A DNA stretch of 64,000 nucleotides from Synechococcus sp. CCY 0621 (lineage in GTDB: Bacteria; Cyanobacteriota; Cyanobacteriia; PCC-6307; Cyanobiaceae): NCBI RefSeq assembly GCF_019038465.1, contig NZ_JAFKRH010000042.1, positions 1-64,000 on the forward strand, written 5' to 3'. The notes under the pieces are model-generated. The model did not search any database, had not been told where the DNA came from, and saw nothing but the letters and a program-made list of their open reading frames with translations. Numbering within the stretch: position 1 is the first letter of the stretch; each line of letters starts with the position of its first letter. Shown one piece after another: positions 31,843-40,104 of this stretch. Made by a program: the position numbers and the translations under genes.

Positions 31843-32946
31843 ATGCATCCCACTCCTGACAAGACAAGCCTGGAGAAGATCAAAGAAGGACTCGACAAAG
31901 GTGGTTACCAATGCGACCAATTAATCGCTTCAGTAGCAGCAAAAAAGCTCTCTTTCAGGGGTTTTTCCTACTACTGCAAGGATATTCCAGTTGCAACTCC
32001 TGACATCACTCCCACCCTCTTTGTGAGCGGCGCCTTTCAGAGCATGCCCTCCTGGCATCGGTTCGCCAGGCTTTTTCTGGGGCGAGGAAAGCCTGTCATC
32101 ATGGTGGATCTGCCAGGAACTGGTCGCGCTGACCCCTTACCCACCGAGTATGGGTTGGATTACCTTGCCGCGACCATCAAACATATGCTGGATGAGCTCG
32201 GACATCACAAGGTGGCTGTCGTTGCCGCCTCCTACGGAACACCGATTGCCTTCCGGTTCGCTGAGCTCCATCCATCCATGGTGGAGAGCCTGGTCCTTTG
32301 TGGAACGATGAAAGAAGTCCCCCATCACATCCATGGCGATCTGGCCCATTCCTTTCAGACTCTTGAAGAAGGGAAAATGGAGCAGTTCGCCAATGAGCTG
32401 CTCGGTGTTTCGGGCCCTCAGCAGGGCTGCGGATTAATCTGCACAGATCCAGAGAAGCCCATCGCCAGAAGGAAGCTGGCCCATCGTCTTCTCTATTCCC
32501 AGTTAATCAACATGAATGCCGCAGATCGTGAAAAGTATGTCATCAACACAAAACGCCTGCTGAACCACGGCCAGATCGCGCTCGGGAGCCCACCTGCCGT
32601 GCGAACGCTTGTTTTCACCGGCGAGCATGACTGTTTCACACGCCCAGAATTCTGCCGTGAAATTGCCAGCGCGTTTTGCAAAGCCACGTTCACGACCATC
32701 CAGCAAGCCGATCACCTGTTTCACATCGAACAGTTCGATACCACGGCCGAGTTGTTGTTCCGGTTCAGCTACAACCAGCCCATTGATGACATTCCCATGC
32801 TGAACGCTATCGAACTGGTCGGCAGAAAGATCAAGAAAAGGTTCAGCCTCCAGAAGGCTCAAACCAGTTCCAATCTCCACTGCCAGAAAAAGTTCAACCA
32901 GGCGACAATGCCAAAGGGGCGCTCATCCTTGGCCCTCACCCCATAG
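31843..32946 (+). CDS. Alpha/beta hydrolase, tandem paralogue 1
   Basis: 367 residues. PTLFVSGAFQSMPSWHRFARLF forms the oxyanion region, followed by VIMVDLPGTGRADPLP and the nucleophile elbow VVAASYGTP (Ser130; Ala replaces the first Gly of GxSxG). The acid is in FTGEHDCFTRPEFC and the His in QADHLFHIEQF. The C-terminal 60 residues are Lys/Gln-rich and diverge from the second copy. The AT-richer DNA and the duplication suggest acquired genes. Substrate unknown; no acyl-carrier or synthase gene lies next to it. Confidence 0.8.
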   Translation: MHPTPDKTSLEKIKEGLDKGGYQCDQLIASVAAKKLSFRGFSYYCKDIPVATPDITPTLFVSGAFQSMPSWHRFARLFLGRGKPVIMVDLPGTGRADPLPTEYGLDYLAATIKHMLDELGHHKVAVVAASYGTPIAFRFAELHPSMVESLVLCGTMKEVPHHIHGDLAHSFQTLEEGKMEQFANELLGVSGPQQGCGLICTDPEKPIARRKLAHRLLYSQLINMNAADREKYVINTKRLLNHGQIALGSPPAVRTLVFTGEHDCFTRPEFCREIASAFCKATFTTIQQADHLFHIEQFDTTAELLFRFSYNQPIDDIPMLNAIELVGRKIKKRFSLQKAQTSSNLHCQKKFNQATMPKGRSSLALTP

Positions 32947-33126: not shown

Positions 33127-34185
33127 ATGCTCCACCTGCATAATTTTCAGAGCACAAACAAAGACCAATTGAATCCTTGCATCATTGCATCGGCCCCAAC
33201 CAAGCGGCTGATCCATTGCGGGTTCCATTTCAGCTACAAACACATCCAACCTGGGGCCGCTCAACACATCCCGACCCTGTTCGTCAGCGGTGCGTTCCAA
33301 TCCATGCAGTCGTGGTACCGCTTCGCCAGGTATTTCATCGAGCAAGGAAAGCCCGTCATCATCGTGGATCTACCTGGCACGGGTGCCTCTGATCCCCTGC
33401 CCACCAGTTTCGGACAGGATTTTCTGGCAGAAACCATTGGAGTGATGCTGGACGACGCCGGGATTGAACGTGTTTCTATCGTTGCCGCCTCTTACGGCAC
33501 ACCAACGGCCTATTGTTTTGCCCAGTTTTTTCCCCACAGAGTTGACAATCTCGTACTGTGCGGAACCATGAAGGAAATCCCTGAGCACCTGCGTGCGGGT
33601 GTTGCCCACACGCTGATACCGCTCAGAAATGGAGACATGGGACAATTTGCTAATGAAGTGCTCGGCATCTCCGGACCCCAAAAAGGCAACGGGCTCCTAT
33701 GTACCGATACAACCAAAAGAGTGGAGCGGCATAAACTTGCCAAGCGTTTACTTTATTCGCAACTAGTGAATATGAACAAACTCGATAGACATAAGTACGA
33801 GCTCAACACTCTACGTCTGCTCCAGCACGGAAAAATCAATCTCAATTCCACCCCATCCTGTAATACCTTGATCTTCACTGGCGAGCACGACTGCTTCACT
33901 TTGCCTGCTTTTTGCAAGGAAATTGCTGATGCTTTCCCTGCCTGCACATTCACAACGATTCGCCATGCCGATCACCTGTTTCATATTGAGCAGTTTGAGA
34001 CAACATCTGAGCTTCTCTATAGATTCTCTTACAATCTACCTATCGAGAAGGTGCCACAGCTGAACCAAATCGAACGCGTCGGCAAGATCTATCGGACGTC
34101 GCAGGGATCCGCCCAACCAGCCAACAACCCCCCGCAGCGCCAACCCCAACCTGTCAACAATCACAGCTTCTCAGAAGCGGCTTGA
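33127..34185 (+). CDS. Alpha/beta hydrolase, tandem paralogue 2
   Basis: 352 residues, clearly homologous over its whole core to the preceding gene. Shared blocks include PTLFVSGAFQSM.SW, VDLPGTG..DPLPT, VAASYGTP (Ser122), LVLCGTMKE, FTGEHDCFT and ADHLFHIEQF. The N-terminus is shorter and the C-terminus is Gln/Pro/Asn-rich. A 180-base spacer separates the two, so they may have separate promoters. Divergence is large enough that the duplication is not recent. Confidence 0.8.
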   Translation: MLHLHNFQSTNKDQLNPCIIASAPTKRLIHCGFHFSYKHIQPGAAQHIPTLFVSGAFQSMQSWYRFARYFIEQGKPVIIVDLPGTGASDPLPTSFGQDFLAETIGVMLDDAGIERVSIVAASYGTPTAYCFAQFFPHRVDNLVLCGTMKEIPEHLRAGVAHTLIPLRNGDMGQFANEVLGISGPQKGNGLLCTDTTKRVERHKLAKRLLYSQLVNMNKLDRHKYELNTLRLLQHGKINLNSTPSCNTLIFTGEHDCFTLPAFCKEIADAFPACTFTTIRHADHLFHIEQFETTSELLYRFSYNLPIEKVPQLNQIERVGKIYRTSQGSAQPANNPPQRQPQPVNNHSFSEAA

Positions 34186-34237
34186 CCATCCAATGGGATG
34201 TTGAGCCGAATTGCAGCGCAACGCCTCTCCACAAACG

Positions 34238-34270
34238 AAAAAAGGATGCATTCTTGATGAATGCATCCTT
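34238..34270 (-). terminator. Intrinsic terminator for the VPGPLPL protein gene
   Basis: A perfect 12-bp stem (34242-34253 with 34259-34270) and 5-base loop. On the minus strand the stem is followed by six T (34243-34238). It lies about 40 bases after the stop of the minus-strand secreted-protein gene. It also separates that gene from the convergent hydrolase. Confidence 0.85.
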
Positions 34271-34311
34271 GATGGAACGATTCCCCAGAAGAGGGAAAAG
34301 AACCCAGTGAA

Positions 34312-35064
34312 TCAGGCCTGCACTGGCTTGGAGGCGACACCTTTCACCCGCTTCCGGAGACGCCGGCTGTAGCCGAAGGCGGCGCCTGCACCAAGCAGAG
34401 GCAGAGGACCGGGGACCTTCTCCGCCTGAATGGAGATGCTCTGGCTGCCGAAGACAGACGTCTGAATCAGGGAAGGCAGGGTGGGGTCCGTGGAGACGAG
34501 GGTGTTGCCACCGATCGTGATCGAGATCAACGAGCCCAGGAGATCGGCGTCTCCATTGTTGGGAAGGGAAGCACCGACATCACCGACGATAGGACCACCG
34601 ATCGCGAAGACAGGTGCTCCACCGACAATCCCCTGGCCGGGGGCGGCGGTCAATGTGATCACGAACTGGTTGGTGACACCACTACCGATGGCAGGAGCGC
34701 CTGGCACCAGCAGGGGAGCTGTGGCACAGGAGAACAAGGGATTGACGAAACCGTTGCAGGCATCAATCGAGCTCTGCTGGGGCACCCACTCCGAGGCATC
34801 GAAAGACAGGACGTACTGGAATGCCGTCACGTCCTGACCAGCAAATCCGACCGCACCGAGCAGAGGCAGATCGAGGTTGAACTGGAAGGGCTGGGTGCTG
34901 CCGGGCTGGAGAACCAGATCATTGATAGGATCTGAATCAATCTGGGAACCTGGAGGCGTGAAGAACACCGCAATGGCATGGGCCTTGTCGGCCGTGCCAA
35001 AAAGGAGAGCGCCTGGGACCAAGGCCAGCGTGGCAGCTCTGGCGAGAAGTTTAGGGATTTTCAT
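34312..35064 (-). CDS. Secreted protein A with VPGPLPL (PEP-CTERM-like) C-terminal sorting signal
   Basis: 250 residues from ATG 35064 (the frame is open to 35124, but a signal peptide starts here: MKIPKLLARAATLALVPGAL...KAHA, cleavage about residue 30). The mature part is Gly/Pro/Leu-rich and beta-looking, with DACNGF...LFSCAT as a possible disulfide pair. The C-terminus has the tripartite sorting layout: VPGPLPLLG (about 217), a short hydrophobic AGAAFGYS and a basic cluster SRRLRKRVK. This resembles the cyanobacterial exosortase substrate tail. Its own terminator follows. Divergent from an HpsJ-like gene. Confidence 0.8.
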   Translation of the reverse strand: MKIPKLLARAATLALVPGALLFGTADKAHAIAVFFTPPGSQIDSDPINDLVLQPGSTQPFQFNLDLPLLGAVGFAGQDVTAFQYVLSFDASEWVPQQSSIDACNGFVNPLFSCATAPLLVPGAPAIGSGVTNQFVITLTAAPGQGIVGGAPVFAIGGPIVGDVGASLPNNGDADLLGSLISITIGGNTLVSTDPTLPSLIQTSVFGSQSISIQAEKVPGPLPLLGAGAAFGYSRRLRKRVKGVASKPVQA

Positions 35065-35491
35065 GTGGGTAGTGTAGCTCCTAGAGACGTGAGCACTTGT
35101 GCAGCTGCCAGACAGCTCCACCAACCATAATAGTAGCAGAAATCCTTAAAGGGTGGTTAGCGGCGCCGAACTATGCAACGAAGACCCACAAATGTGTCGA
35201 TTTCTTAACTTTCGTCCCGGCGCCTAAAACCTTCCTTGGCCGGTTCCGCAAGCCTAGCGGGCTTCCCAATCGTCTCTTTCAACCGGTCGGGTCCCCGAGT
35301 TGGGGAGCACCAACGGGACTCATGAGTAATCTTGGCCCAAAGGAGGAGCCAAGATCGGCTTGGAGGGTCTGCCGAAGGAGCATGGGCCGTTTCGACCGCC
35401 TCGGTCGCTGGCCTCCACAGATTTCAGGCTTCCATGGGACGCTACCTTTCGATCGCTTTTCTCTGTCCTCAAAAGACATGTCTGCCCTGCG
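35065..35491. promoter_or_regulatory. Divergent intergenic region of module A
   Basis: 427 bases between the signal-peptide start of protein A and the first HpsJ-like gene. The left part (35100-35240) is AT-rich and probably holds the divergent promoters. At 35329-35355 there is a perfect 8-bp hairpin with an 11-base loop containing AGGAGG. Open frames across it show no protein-like character. Confidence 0.5.
35329..35355 (+). promoter_or_regulatory. Hairpin in the leader of the HpsJ-like gene
   Basis: ATCTTGGC (35329-35336) pairs with GCCAAGAT (35348-35355); the loop carries AGGAGG. There is no T run, so it is not a simple terminator. It could be an RNA element or protein site in the leader, 137 bases ahead of the ATG at 35492. 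Speculative. Confidence 0.35.
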
Positions 35492-36298
35492 ATGATCGAC
35501 CACTTCACTGATCAAGGCGACAATCCCAACAACGACCCCAAAGAAAAACTCAGGGTCGTCAGTGATTTTCTTGCTGCAACGGCGACCGGCCTTTTCCTCG
35601 TTTTCCTGGCGTACGTCCTGTTCGATTCCCTGCCCCTCCAGCTACTGCGATCTGACTGGCAGCTGAAATTAGTGGCTCGCCTGATGGCCCTGGGCTCACT
35701 GCCCCTGGTGGGTCTTGCCTGCCTGCACATCGCTTCGATCTTGCATCCATCCCCCCATGCCTATCGACAACGCCTCGCCAATGTGCGCCAGTGGGCCATC
35801 GCTGTTGCCATCGGATTTCTGCTGCTCATTCCACTCCAGGGCTTCGCCACCTTGACGTCCTATAAAGAGGCAAAGGTGATCCAGAATACGCAGTTGCAAA
35901 CGGCCAACAGGCGTCTCGCCCCGCTGAAGCAGGCGATCGCTTCGGCCACCAGCACGGCAGACCTCCAGAAGAAGATCTCCGCCCTCAAGGATTTCCAGAT
36001 CCAGCTCCAGCCTGCTGACCTTGCCCAACCCCTGCCACTGGTCAAGAAAGGCATCCTGGACAATCTTGCACGGGCGGAAAACATCTATGCCGACCGCGTT
36101 GGAGGCCCCACTCCAGCCCAGTTATGGACGGCGGGTCAGTCTGCGTTGCGCACCATTCTCGGTTCCATCGGCTATGCCTACGCCTTTGCCGCTGGTGCAC
36201 AGGGGAAGAACTCCTCCCTCACCCTCCTGGATACGTTGTCACGCCGCTGGCAGACCCTGACCAGAGCACGTCACAGGAAACAGAGGATGCCCTATTGA
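35492..36298 (+). CDS. HpsJ-like integral membrane protein, copy 1
   Basis: 268 residues from ATG 35492. Predicted spans lie at about 27-47, 64-84, 101-121 (WAIAVAIGFLLLIPLQGFATL) and 219-237, with a long charged helical region (about 125-200) between spans 3 and 4. It shares FLVFLAYVLFDSLPLQLL, RQWAI, PLQGFAT, RVGGPTP..LW and AFAAGAQ with copy 2. The layout matches HpsJ-type proteins, which in filamentous cyanobacteria belong to hormogonium polysaccharide export and are often found with cyanoexosortases. I recognise the family only by general resemblance. Confidence 0.68.
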   Translation: MIDHFTDQGDNPNNDPKEKLRVVSDFLAATATGLFLVFLAYVLFDSLPLQLLRSDWQLKLVARLMALGSLPLVGLACLHIASILHPSPHAYRQRLANVRQWAIAVAIGFLLLIPLQGFATLTSYKEAKVIQNTQLQTANRRLAPLKQAIASATSTADLQKKISALKDFQIQLQPADLAQPLPLVKKGILDNLARAENIYADRVGGPTPAQLWTAGQSALRTILGSIGYAYAFAAGAQGKNSSLTLLDTLSRRWQTLTRARHRKQRMPY

Positions 36299-36369
36299 TG
36301 TCACCCCGTCGATGACGCCGAAGCCTGGCCTCTCCGGTTTTTCTCAGCGTTCATTCCTCTGCAGCCCCG

Positions 36370-36620
36370 ACGCCTGACTACTCAGCCAGTCGCGAGGAGT
36401 ATGTCGCCGGATTCAGCCGCCTGTCCGCCTGAAGCGGTGGAGAGATGCTGCTGGATTCTTCAGTCTTCGTGCTGGTCGATTCCCTACCCCTCCAGCTACT
36501 CAATCCGGCCTGGCCACTGCGCTACAGCAACAGCATGGTCATCACCTCACTGCTGACCCGCTGGGTTTGCTGCTGCTGCTCTTGGTGCTGTTCATCGAGC
36601 TCGCCTGGGGGACATCGTCG
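36370..36620 (+). pseudogene. Decayed, truncated HpsJ-like copy
   Basis: Aligns codon by codon with the N-terminal 80 residues of copy 2 (PDYSASRE..., FVLVDSLPLQLLNPAW.LR). The start has become ACG (36370). A tryptophan codon has become TGA (36430-36432). One base is missing at about 36556-36580, shifting the frame. Homology ends just before the stop of the opposite-strand gene at 36626, so the last two thirds are gone. Not expected to make a protein. Confidence 0.82.
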
Positions 36621-36625
36621 TGATG

Positions 36626-37456
36626 TCAGCGCACCTGCCGGAGCCGCTGCCTCAGGCGGCGGCTGGACCGCCAGGCGATGGCCACACCGGCCAGGGGCAG
36701 GGGGCCGGGAACCGAGGCCGGATCGGGCCCCTCTGCGGCGTGAGCATCGCCTGGGCCCTCAGGCCATTCGCCGGCCAAGTCATCGGAGGGTGCCCCTGGT
36801 GGGAGGGGTTCAGTGCCCTGGGGCAGCAGGGCGGTTTCGAACACCTCCCCAGCCTGCCTCTGGCCGGGATCCTCGCCGGCGGGCTCGGCGGCAATGGCAA
36901 GCTCCGAGGGGTCAGAGGAGGATTCGTCCGACTCCGAAGCGCCAGCGGGAACGATCCGGAAAGGGACGAAGCCACCGGTGGCCCCGTTGAAGACGTTGTC
37001 GAACAGAGTGCCCGCCTGCCAGGTGAGCTGCGCCTCAGGAGTGGAGGAGGTGCCCGCCCAGCGGAAGGCGAGGGGGCTGCTCAACCGGAACAGGCTGTCG
37101 CCTGAGGCGGCACCGGAACGCGCCAGAAAGAAGCCAGAGGGCACAACAAAACCATCAACGCTCACCTCATAAGGGGCAACGCTGTAGTGGAAGGGCGGCA
37201 CGACCAGGCCCGTGGAGGAGTTGGCCAGGCGGATCCCGCCGGCCCCGACCAGGTAATCGGGCGAGACACCGAATCCCGGAGTCAGGAGCTCTCGCAGCTC
37301 CTCCAGGTCTCCCAGGCTCTCGTGGGGATGGCTGCCCACGGCAGGAGCAGCGGTACTGGCGACCAGGCAGGTGAGCAGCAGCAGCGGGGGGTAAAGGTGG
37401 ACCGAGGGGCGGAAACGGCCCAGGGAGAGGGCACCGAGACGGAGGGGGCGTGCCAT
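36626..37456 (-). CDS. Secreted protein B with VPGPLPL (PEP-CTERM-like) C-terminal sorting signal
   Basis: 276 residues. An N-terminal hydrophobic signal segment ends ...STAAPAVGS (about residue 42). The mature domain includes VPPFHYSVAPYEVSVDGFVVPSGFFLARSG and LTWQAGTLFDNVFNG. An acidic Ser/Glu/Asp/Pro spacer follows (about 175-245). Then come VPGPLPLAG (249), a short hydrophobic stretch and a basic end SSRRLRQRLRQVR. The sorting tail matches protein A although the rest differs, so both look like clients of the same sorting enzyme. Divergent from HpsJ-like copy 2. Confidence 0.75.
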   Translation of the reverse strand: MARPLRLGALSLGRFRPSVHLYPPLLLLTCLVASTAAPAVGSHPHESLGDLEELRELLTPGFGVSPDYLVGAGGIRLANSSTGLVVPPFHYSVAPYEVSVDGFVVPSGFFLARSGAASGDSLFRLSSPLAFRWAGTSSTPEAQLTWQAGTLFDNVFNGATGGFVPFRIVPAGASESDESSSDPSELAIAAEPAGEDPGQRQAGEVFETALLPQGTEPLPPGAPSDDLAGEWPEGPGDAHAAEGPDPASVPGPLPLAGVAIAWRSSRRLRQRLRQVR

Positions 37457-37639
37457 GGAGGCCTAAGGATATTTCACCAATCTATCAGGCGATATTCAGG
37501 AAGCACGCATTCCTCCTTAAGCGGCGCTGGCAGGGTGGTCGTGTTGCCCTCTGACGCGGAGCCCGTGACGCCACTGGTCAGCCCCCCTAAGGTCTGGGCC
37601 GCTGGTTCGCTCCCGCCACCTTCCCCGTCCCGAGCACGG

Positions 37640-38422
37640 ATGCCTGATTACTCCGCCAGTCGCGAAGACCACATCGCCAGCTTCGGCCGCCTGTTCGCCT
37701 GGAGCGGCGGCGGGCTGCTGCTGGTGTTTCTGGGCTTCGTTCTGGTCGATTCCATGCCCCTGCAGCTGCTGAATCCCGCCTGGCAACTGCGCTTCACCAA
37801 CCGCATGGTCAACACCTCCCTGCTGGCCCTGGTTGGGTTTCTGCTGTTGCACCTGGGTCTCTACATCGAGCCCGCCAACGGCTTCCTGCGGGCCCAGGTG
37901 GCCACCGCCCGCCAGTGGGCCATCGTCGTGGTCTTCGCCTTCCTGCTGCTGGTGCCCCTGCAGGGTTTCGCCACCTGGCGTGTCCTCTCCCAGGCGCAGG
38001 GCAACGAGGCGATGCAGCGCAACGTGCTCGGCGAGCGGGTGACGATGATCCGCCAGGCCATCGAAGCGGCCACCAGCCCGGAGGACCTGCAGGCCCGTTT
38101 CTCCCGACTGCGGGCCCCCCGACCCGAGCTGCCTGCGGCCGCCCTCAGCCTCCCCCTTGGCGAACTGAAGCGCAGCCTGCTCGATGAACTCCAGCGGACC
38201 GAGACCCGTGCCAACAACCGGATCGGCGGCCCCGCCCCCACCGACCTCTGGGCCCTTGGACAGGGGGCAGCCAGGGTCAGCATCGCCGCGCTGGGCTTCG
38301 CCGTGGCCTTCGCCGCTGGTGCCCAGCGGCCGGGTGCCTCCCTCACCCTGCTCCAGCAACTGAGCAGGCAGGTGGACATCCTGCTGGGGCGACGTCCGAA
38401 GCCCAACCGACGCGCCCCCTGA
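37640..38422 (+). CDS. HpsJ-like integral membrane protein, copy 2
   Basis: 260 residues from ATG 37640 (the open frame upstream is antisense or intergenic). Membrane spans lie at about 22-44, 59-78, 92-112 and near 220-240, with a charged helical loop carrying AQGNEAMQRNVLGERVTMIRQAIEAATSPEDLQ. Shared with copy 1: DSMPLQLL, RQWAI, LLLVPLQGFAT, NRIGGPAPTDLW and AFAAGAQ. Paired divergently with secreted protein B (183-base gap), the same arrangement as copy 1 with protein A. Confidence 0.7.
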   Translation: MPDYSASREDHIASFGRLFAWSGGGLLLVFLGFVLVDSMPLQLLNPAWQLRFTNRMVNTSLLALVGFLLLHLGLYIEPANGFLRAQVATARQWAIVVVFAFLLLVPLQGFATWRVLSQAQGNEAMQRNVLGERVTMIRQAIEAATSPEDLQARFSRLRAPRPELPAAALSLPLGELKRSLLDELQRTETRANNRIGGPAPTDLWALGQGAARVSIAALGFAVAFAAGAQRPGASLTLLQQLSRQVDILLGRRPKPNRRAP

Positions 38423-38484
38423 CCACCGCCAGCCAGCAGCCCGCGGGCTGGCCGCTTGAATGGGCCCCACCGGATCGCAAGATC

Positions 38485-40104
38485 TTGCCGACGACCAGGG
38501 GTAGAGATGGACGCCGACCAACCGCGATCGCGGCCAGCCTCGCCTCCCTGCTGCTGGCACTGCCGTTGCTGGTGGCCTGTCAGCCGAGGCGATCCAGCCC
38601 GTCCCTGATCGTGGCCACCAAGAGCCGCATCGATTCCCTCGATCCGGTGCAGGCCTCCCGCGTCGGCGTGATGCAGGTGCTCAGCGGCCTCGGCGACCCC
38701 CTCTATGCGATCGACAGCAACGGCCGCCTCGAGCCGCGGCTGGCCACGGCCCTGCCGGAGCTGAGCGGCGATGGGCTGCGGGCCCGGATCCCCCTGCGCC
38801 GCGGGGTGCTCTTCCATGACGGCACCCGCTTCGATGCCGCCGCCATGGCGTTCTCCCTGCGCCGCTTCATGGCGATCGGCACCCTCGGCTACCAGCTGAG
38901 TGAGCGGGTTGAAAGCGTGCAGGTGACCGCTCCCTATGAGATCGAGCTGGTGCTGAAGCGCCCCTTCAGCCCGCTGCCGCGGCTGCTCAGCGCCATCTTC
39001 CTCACGCCCGTCTCCCCCACCGCCTACCGGCGGCATCGCGACAAGCCCCTCAACGACCGCTTCGTCGGCACCGGCCCCTATGCCCTGGCCTTCTTCGGTG
39101 GCCAGCAACAGCGCCTGAAACCCTGGCCCCGCTACTGGGGGCGGCGTCCGGCCAACGGGGGCATCGACCTGGTGACCCTGAGCAACTCCACCGCCCTGTT
39201 CGGTGCCCTGCGCAGCGGCGAGGTCGACCTGCTGCTCAACGGCGGTCTGGAGATCGACCATCAGCAGGCCCTGCACCGCGACGCCGCGGCCGGCCGCCTG
39301 CGGGAAGCCGTCGGCCCCGCCATGGAGATCTCCCTCGTCTCCCTGCTGAGCGACCAGCCGCCGCTGAACCGGTCCGGCCTGCGCCAGGCCGTGGCCCGCA
39401 GCCTCGATCGGGACACCATCGCCCGGCGGGTGACCCTGGGGCTGCGTTCCCCCCAGCGGCAACTGATCCCTCCGGACCTGCCGGGTTCCGATCCCAGCGC
39501 CTGGCCGGCCTACGACCCCGCCGGGGCCCGCGCCCTCTACCGCCAGGCGGGCTATTGCCGGGGGCGGGTGCTCACCCTGCCGCTCACCTATCGCTCCGAC
39601 ATCCCCACCGACCGTCTGTTCGCCCTCACCTGGCAGGCCCAGCTGCGCCGTGACCTGGGCGATTGCGTGACCCTGGAGGTGAGCGGCATGGAGTCGACCA
39701 CTGCCTACTCCCAGCTCGACAAAGGCGCCCTGACGATGCTCTTCTACGACTGGATCGGCGACTATCCCGATGCGGAGAACTTCCTGATGCCACTGCTGTC
39801 CTGCAGCAAGGCCGAGGGGGACCGCTGCCTGAAGGGCAACAGTGTGCTGGGCGGCAGCTTCTGGACGGCGCCGGGGCTGGAGGCGGATCTGCAGCGCAGC
39901 AGCCAGCTGGTTGGTCCCGAGCGGGTCGCCCTGCTGGTGGCCATCCAGCGCCGCGTCGCCGCCGCCAGCCCCTACGTGCCGGTGTGGCTCAGTGCCCCGG
40001 CGGCCTGGGGCGGCCTGGACCTCAGCCAGCCCCAGTTCGACGGCTCCGGCCGGGTGATGCTGGGCGAGCTGCGCCGTCTGCCCGCCGGAGCCCGGCTGCC
40101 ATGA
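38485..40104 (+). CDS. ABC transporter substrate-binding lipoprotein, peptide/nickel (family 5) type
   Basis: 539 residues from a TTG at 38485, the only in-frame start before the signal sequence. The lipobox is LLVAC (Cys about 32). Family-5 features include IDSLDPVQASRVGVMQVLSGLGDPLY, RIPLRRGVLFHDGTRFDAAAMAFSLRR and VGTGPYAL. It would bind a peptide or similar solute in the periplasm for the adjoining permease. ATPases and the second permease are not in the window. Confidence 0.88.
   Translation: MPTTRGRDGRRPTAIAASLASLLLALPLLVACQPRRSSPSLIVATKSRIDSLDPVQASRVGVMQVLSGLGDPLYAIDSNGRLEPRLATALPELSGDGLRARIPLRRGVLFHDGTRFDAAAMAFSLRRFMAIGTLGYQLSERVESVQVTAPYEIELVLKRPFSPLPRLLSAIFLTPVSPTAYRRHRDKPLNDRFVGTGPYALAFFGGQQQRLKPWPRYWGRRPANGGIDLVTLSNSTALFGALRSGEVDLLLNGGLEIDHQQALHRDAAAGRLREAVGPAMEISLVSLLSDQPPLNRSGLRQAVARSLDRDTIARRVTLGLRSPQRQLIPPDLPGSDPSAWPAYDPAGARALYRQAGYCRGRVLTLPLTYRSDIPTDRLFALTWQAQLRRDLGDCVTLEVSGMESTTAYSQLDKGALTMLFYDWIGDYPDAENFLMPLLSCSKAEGDRCLKGNSVLGGSFWTAPGLEADLQRSSQLVGPERVALLVAIQRRVAAASPYVPVWLSAPAAWGGLDLSQPQFDGSGRVMLGELRRLPAGARLP

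Follow-up and report, generated by a model that had tools for sequence, protein, structure and literature searches.

Exosortase/PEP-CTERM sorting is an established system (Haft et al. 2006, PMC1569441; CrtB of Nostoc, PMC12188702). Its substrates combine a Sec signal with a C-terminal tail made of a motif, a hydrophobic stretch and a basic cluster, the passengers are many and unrelated, and the exosortase is encoded among polysaccharide genes. A link between cyanoexosortases A and C and membrane proteins of the HpsJ type is already known from NCBIfam, where NF050013 is named as cyanoexosortase A-associated, NF050019 is named for cyanoexosortase C, and NF050014 (HpsJ_like_B) for hormogonium polysaccharide; hpsJ itself is listed as Npun_F0077 in a table of PMC10581220. 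Here, we analyze a stretch of 64,000 nucleotides, henceforth the window, from Synechococcus sp. CCY 0621 (contig NZ_JAFKRH010000042.1, positions 1 to 64,000), in which two genes for tail-bearing secreted proteins, substrates A and B, each lie head-to-head with a gene for an HpsJ-family membrane protein, HpsJ1 and HpsJ2, respectively. On balance, we consider it probable that these are two modules of substrate and partner within a cyanoexosortase A-like sorting system, in which the HpsJ copies act as dedicated membrane adaptors that present substrates to one exosortase.

The systems represented by NF050013 contain the same membrane protein family, with one HpsJ inside the exosortase operon, whereas many diverged copies are found here, nearly all of the counted ones beside substrates. 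In comparison with the PEP-CTERM systems, PGPLP replaces PEP, the hydrophobic stretch is short, and many substrates have a membrane partner of their own. EpsI and the cyanosortase A-associated protein TIGR04153 are small partners encoded directly after the exosortase; HpsJ differs from them in being a separate gene of the same operons, and the one that is found beside substrates. Eag chaperones of type VI effectors are substrate-dedicated secretion chaperones, and the arrangement described here may resemble them in that a helper encoded beside each client would recognize a membrane-inserting segment; this likeness is functional only, with no homology claimed. A literature search that left most subscription journals out of reach found no publication combining HpsJ and PEP-CTERM, the word hpsJ does not occur in PMC12188702, and no assigned function for HpsJ or other exosortase-associated proteins was found in the literature examined. 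The redistribution of HpsJ in this genus (4 to 23 per genome among the matches listed, usually with one exosortase, and with copies beside substrates) looks new.

Substrate A (34312-35064, minus strand) is an open reading frame (ORF) with a signal-peptide-like start, a passenger without known family and the tail VPGPLPLLGAGAAFGYSRRLRKRVKG; substrate B (36626-37456, minus strand) has the same architecture and ends in the tail VPGPLPLAGVAIAWRSSRRLRQRLRQ. An earlier note on this DNA, made from the letters alone, had claimed unrelated middles with nearly the same VPGPLPL tail in the layout of exosortase substrates, and both points are borne out. On inspection, each translation reads as an N-terminal signal peptide and a passenger, after which VPGPLPL leads into a short hydrophobic stretch with a basic cluster behind it, and in a BLASTP comparison of A with B, only the tail stands above noise (15 residues aligned, E 0.04, with all other segments at E >3). 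The sorting tails, at 34342-34416 in A and 36635-36712 in B, both on the minus strand, were located by the pattern and by a hidden Markov model (HMM) built from nine tails of the own genome (E 3.7e-15 for A, which is one of the nine tails inside the model, and 5.1e-14 for B). The window contains two occurrences of the V-P-G-P-L-P DNA pattern, namely the A and B tails, where 0.08 are expected by chance. The wider search for such tails that the note had proposed yielded seven occurrences across the genome, along with two more substrates ending in the variants VPGPLPV and VPGPLPI. In the alignment of the nine own-genome tails, 12 of 26 columns are invariant, and the C-terminal motif, hydrophobic stretch and basic cluster typical of PEP-CTERM substrates are present; the Pro-Glu-Pro motif is absent, with VPGPLP in its place in all nine.

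HpsJ1 (35492-36298, plus strand) is divergent to A and HpsJ2 (37640-38422, plus strand) is divergent to B, with start-to-start gaps of 427 bp and 183 bp, respectively, so that the head-to-head arrangement noticed earlier holds for both pairs in the window. These coordinates are given from the ATG codons at 35492 and 37640; the program-listed ORFs extend further upstream. The two proteins share 42% identity over 221 residues, and their homology to NF050013 (HpsJ_like_A) is significant over most of the model, with E 8e-13 (positions 13-206 of 217) for HpsJ1 and 8e-19 (positions 4-206) for HpsJ2. Against an own-genome HpsJ model, of which both are members, they reach E 5.1e-101 and 3.1e-98, respectively.

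One line of support for a joint function is how regularly the two types of genes are paired. A search of the own genome with NF038305 (HpsJ_fam), which is blind to tails, returned 11 HpsJ matches, ten of which lie near a tail gene, one of the tails being degraded; near the eleventh (C15:146983), which is short and an outlier among the paralogues, no tail was found. The own-genome HpsJ model was built from the ten HpsJ proteins with a tail neighbor, leaving out C15:146983, and was applied to seven genomes of the genus, namely the own genome and six others with few contigs. Among the resulting 62 HpsJ matches, which include a relic in the window and one gene of genome G004 matched in two pieces, 60 are accompanied by a tail gene at up to 2.7 kb and 59 at up to 2.5 kb, compared with about 1.8 expected at 2.7 kb. 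Because the model was built from tail-neighbored copies, the count in the own genome is in part a product of how the model was made. This effect does not extend to the six other genomes, where 49 of 51 HpsJ matches are paired, in agreement with the predicted co-occurrence of the two gene types in relatives. With respect to the nearest tail (n=60), the most common layout is the same strand with the tail upstream (38), followed by divergent (12), convergent (8) and same-strand with the tail downstream (2), so the window shows the rarer, divergent layout. Pairs that diverge with similar spacing were also found in genomes G008 and G018. Thus, of the proposal that divergent pairs form a repeated module, the repeated pairing stood and the orientation as a rule did not. 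At C25 of the own genome (L018:1080-3200), an intact HpsJ gene has as its neighbor a passenger that seems to be frameshifted and whose tail is degraded (E 1.5e-5); this unit is a third module of a tandem array, near a gene that, judged by eye, resembles one for arginyl-tRNA synthetase.

One-to-one pairs with variable passengers, along with orphan HpsJ genes reminiscent of orphan immunity genes, could also be expected if the passenger were a surface-displayed toxin and HpsJ its membrane immunity protein. We hold this to be extremely unlikely: HpsJ is the conserved member of the pair and the passenger the variable one, relatives of HpsJ occur in exosortase operons, and the domain hints obtained for three of the nine other HpsJ-linked passengers scanned (cistern-like, DUF1194/VWA, and DUF642/choice-of-anchor C) are not those of toxins.

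The HpsJ family is expanded in the genus, nearly all counted copies lie beside single substrates, and the exosortase is usually single-copy: among 37 genus genomes, one exosortase match was found in 28, two or three in six, and none in three. Tails and HpsJ were found in all 37, among the matches listed. Across 250 genomes of the order, with a strict HpsJ cut-off of E 1e-20, an exosortase is present in 34 of 34 HpsJ-positive genomes versus 15 of 216 HpsJ-negative ones (among the matches listed, compared by eye); outside the own genus, again among the matches listed, it is present in nine of nine HpsJ-positive genomes (Fisher 3.8e-10, with kinship ignored). The two genes are also physically linked in relatives. 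When the 29 best-scoring exosortase loci of relatives were examined with flanks of about 1.5 kb, an HpsJ-like gene was found after the exosortase and one small gene in five. At L075, the order is a PEP-CTERM protein, CrtA (325.9 bits), TIGR04153 (133.6) and NF050013 (257.3), and at L074, CrtA (302.7 bits), TIGR04153 (169.7) and NF050013 (206.9), with all scores above the cut-offs; both loci belong to other families of the class. The exosortase-adjacent HpsJ was checked by NCBIfam at L074, L075, L077 and L090, with a further case at L171, and G004 contains a second exosortase gene, a diverged one, that overlaps with an HpsJ gene. A tree built from 82 HpsJ proteins separates, with moderate support, four of the five exosortase-linked copies from the rest. 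On gene order and genome content, HpsJ is, by prediction, a genuine partner of the exosortase.

The surroundings of the exosortase permit another interpretation, namely that HpsJ acts on exopolysaccharide rather than on the tail, each pair consisting of a matrix protein and a membrane helper for making or exporting the polysaccharide to which the protein attaches, with the exosortase co-occurring because both serve the matrix. The HpsJ family is named after a hormogonium polysaccharide locus, HpsJ2 has a weak match to TIGR03025 (E 0.017), and exosortase loci lie among polysaccharide genes; at the main exosortase locus of G004, a UDP-GlcNAc 4,6-dehydratase-like gene directly precedes the exosortase and a Wzc-like tyrosine kinase is encoded nearby. 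We nevertheless consider this interpretation unlikely, given that the recurrent neighbor of HpsJ is a tail-bearing secreted protein and that the passengers, which fall into 28 clusters, have the tail in common.

These passenger clusters were obtained from 71 distinct modules of 26 genomes, and 11 of them have more than one member. A homologous passenger exists in another genome for 54 modules, and for 46 of these, the best HpsJ match from other genomes carries such a passenger, where 3.3 are expected, indicating that substrate and partner are inherited together. Substrate B belongs to such a lineage: G004, G013 and G023 have all kept the B/HpsJ2 pair, each with a homologue of the B passenger beside an HpsJ2-like gene. 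Substrate A is the sole member of its passenger cluster. Among the matches listed, its relatives mostly cover the tail end, about 20 span 80-130 residues weakly, and the longest, in G023, covers residues 14-244 of A at 34% identity (reduced to 119 residues at 35% when the two proteins were compared directly).

Several observations weigh against the reading of HpsJ copies as dedicated adaptors, beginning with the limits of pairing and joint inheritance. Of the 95 tails in the seven genomes, 56 have an HpsJ gene within 2.5 kb and 39 do not, which speaks against strict pairing. In a second set of 79 loci of Cyanobium, Synechococcus, Aphanothece and uncultured cyanobacteria, a canonical tail lies within 2.5 kb of 59 of the 89 HpsJ ORFs; the other 30 lack one, some of them being near contig ends. 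This set was collected by one peptide pattern, so the strong conservation of that peptide stretch is by selection, and it overlaps with the other genomes analyzed here, 17 of the 79 loci being identical to stretches from these. At the locus of the window itself, relatives (L092 and L093) have kept HpsJ without tail genes, with two HpsJ genes in Cyanobium sp. CACIAM 14 and one in Microcystis elabens FACHB-917, and no tail genes in either. Synteny explains most of the joint inheritance: a flanking gene is shared by 94 of the 126 cross-genome pairs within clusters, where a missing shared flank may stem from a short contig.

Such figures raise the question of whether the pairs are linked by descent alone, a substrate and its hpsJ having been duplicated together by chance and the copies kept without joint function. 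Modules in tandem, found at C25 as well as in G008 and G013, fit this scenario, as do the syntenic position of most conserved modules and the persistence of orphan HpsJ genes, 12 of which were included in the tree and are scattered among the substrate-linked proteins (12 label changes, the same as with shuffled labels), a distribution that also fits repeated loss of the substrate. Descent alone is, in our judgment, quite unlikely as an explanation, because the pairing holds over many separate loci and 28 passenger clusters, and the co-occurrence with the exosortase holds beyond the genus.

The family assignments also count against the proposed adaptor modules in some respects. The HMM search of both membrane proteins that the earlier note recommended did match the HpsJ and cyanoexosortase A-associated families, with scores below the curated cut-offs: HpsJ1 and HpsJ2 reach 48.5 and 68.1 bits against NF050013 (cut-off 140), and 45.9 and 50.2 bits against NF038305 (cut-off 60, exceeded by five of the 11 own-genome matches). 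A and B have no family match in NCBIfam and Pfam, and neither is matched by the PEP-CTERM models TIGR04155 and TIGR02595; TIGR04155 weakly matches two of the six other own-genome substrates scanned (of seven), at 11.9 and 11.4 bits with a cut-off of 21.6. Fold searches with a model of HpsJ2 were uninformative and led to no conclusion (Foldseek best E 0.24, TM <0.4 among the rows listed). The best hit of a second structural aligner (Z 9.6) was a designed helical repeat, within the usual range for helical proteins, a sequence profile compared with solved structures recovered mostly designed coiled coils and similar proteins (best E 0.0046), and a weak profile match to translocon-associated protein gamma had E 3.6. 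Of the 29 exosortase loci examined in relatives, 24 lack an HpsJ-like ORF within the flanks, and the main exosortase loci of the own genome (G000), G004, G013 and G023 have no adjacent HpsJ match.

The remaining difficulty concerns the exosortase of this strain. The genome contains one exosortase match (C10:168118-168813, PF09721 E 1.2e-27), so the cyanoexosortase that the earlier note placed elsewhere in the genome exists, in a form that reads as interrupted. It is closest to cyanoexosortase A (TIGR03763), scoring 99.7 bits for the part before an in-frame TAG against a cut-off of 150; the exosortase of the genus relative L090 scores 127.9 bits. The exosortase active site consists of Cys, Arg and His. 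The GPCNGL and CNTLRI motifs are present, and the TAG falls between CNTLR and FDFFH (reading GSW, TAG, FDFFH), so that FDFFH, whose His we take to be the catalytic histidine, is located after the stop. Loss of this presumed catalytic His would kill the enzyme. Among six aligned relatives, namely those passing a motif filter among 15 exosortase loci, the position of the TAG is occupied by W in four, L in two and a stop in none, and the own genome alone among the genus genomes listed has an internal stop in the exosortase. Since the gene reads as interrupted, sorting may not operate in this strain, unless the base call is wrong; a single wrong base in the assembly may account for the TAG.

If the system is dying in this strain, with the exosortase lost and the modules decaying, the stop in the sole exosortase found would be expected, and so would the HpsJ relic in the window and the degraded passenger at C25. 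We find this rather doubtful. The rest of the exosortase is intact, being open on both sides of the TAG, with 260 of the 265 residues before the stop identical to those of G004; both modules in the window are open; the single base may be an assembly error; and the relics fit ordinary turnover equally well.

The sequence and predicted structure of HpsJ bear on how such an adaptor would work. The AlphaFold2 model of HpsJ2 (mean pLDDT 93) consists of two long helices, a third helix of 63 residues, a helical domain and, at the end, another long helix; at its length, the third helix should leave the membrane. In HpsJ, hydropathy brings out three hydrophobic cores clearly and a fourth more weakly. 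The loop that follows the second core carries 3.0 lysine plus arginine residues per sequence, the segments after and immediately before the last helix carry 2.4 and 2.3, respectively, and the first loop carries 0.7. Together, these distributions suggest, not strongly, a topology with both termini inside and the helical domain in the periplasm. Residues at conserved sites are mostly L, A, P, G, F, W and Q, with no candidate catalytic set in the alignments, which favors an adaptor or escort role.

Under the adaptor reading, A and B would be exported by Sec and held in the inner membrane by the PEP-CTERM-like tail (VPGPLP, hydrophobic stretch and arginine cluster). Each HpsJ, as a substrate-specific partner, would then bind the tail or pre-protein of its neighbor in the membrane through its transmembrane helices and mostly periplasmic helical domain; the tail, being the feature common to the passengers, is the likely contact. 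Such binding could keep the client from aggregating or escaping, and HpsJ would present the client to the exosortase and to the polysaccharide-export machinery linked with it; there, the tail would be removed and the passenger anchored or released. More tentatively, and with less confidence than in the modules themselves, we propose a system of one enzyme and many adaptors, in which each member of a paralogous HpsJ fleet has evolved for one client encoded beside it, such that the choice of adaptor, not of enzyme, would decide which surface protein is sorted, when and where. A fleet of HpsJ proteins, mostly encoded beside the likely client, makes the function of HpsJ open to simple one-copy, one-protein genetics. 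HpsJ can also serve as a marker for exosortase substrates whose tails escape the standard models, and the system can be used to study how surfaces diversify among freshwater picocyanobacteria.

Additional observations concern the spread of tails and HpsJ genes. In seven genomes (G001, G019, G024, G027, G031, G032 and G034), 31 to 50 tails per genome were found, far above the HpsJ count, among the matches listed; of these, G031 has 50 tails, four HpsJ and no exosortase match. A GDSL lipase-like protein (PF00657) with the same tail is encoded at L181:4982-6151, on a contig without an HpsJ match, suggesting that enzymes, too, may use this sorting signal. Cyanobacterial-type HpsJ genes were also encountered at L125, L145 and L155, from a metagenome-assembled genome titled Bifidobacterium breve, which is probably mislabeled or contaminated.

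In the window, the relic of an HpsJ N-terminus lies between the two modules (36379-36555, plus strand; E 9.4e-6 against the own-genome HpsJ model, with an internal TGA in the translated frame), and a third HpsJ copy seems to have been lost here. A promoter scan of positions 34000-38700 found no sigma-70-like promoter, and we accordingly make no claim of a shared promoter for the pairs. A consensus scan alone points to a terminator-like hairpin downstream of A (34242-34270, minus strand), with 12 pairs followed by a T run. Directly upstream of the A/B region, two tandem alpha/beta hydrolase genes (31843-32946 and 33127-34185, plus strand), with 60% identity over 318 residues, are a duplication.

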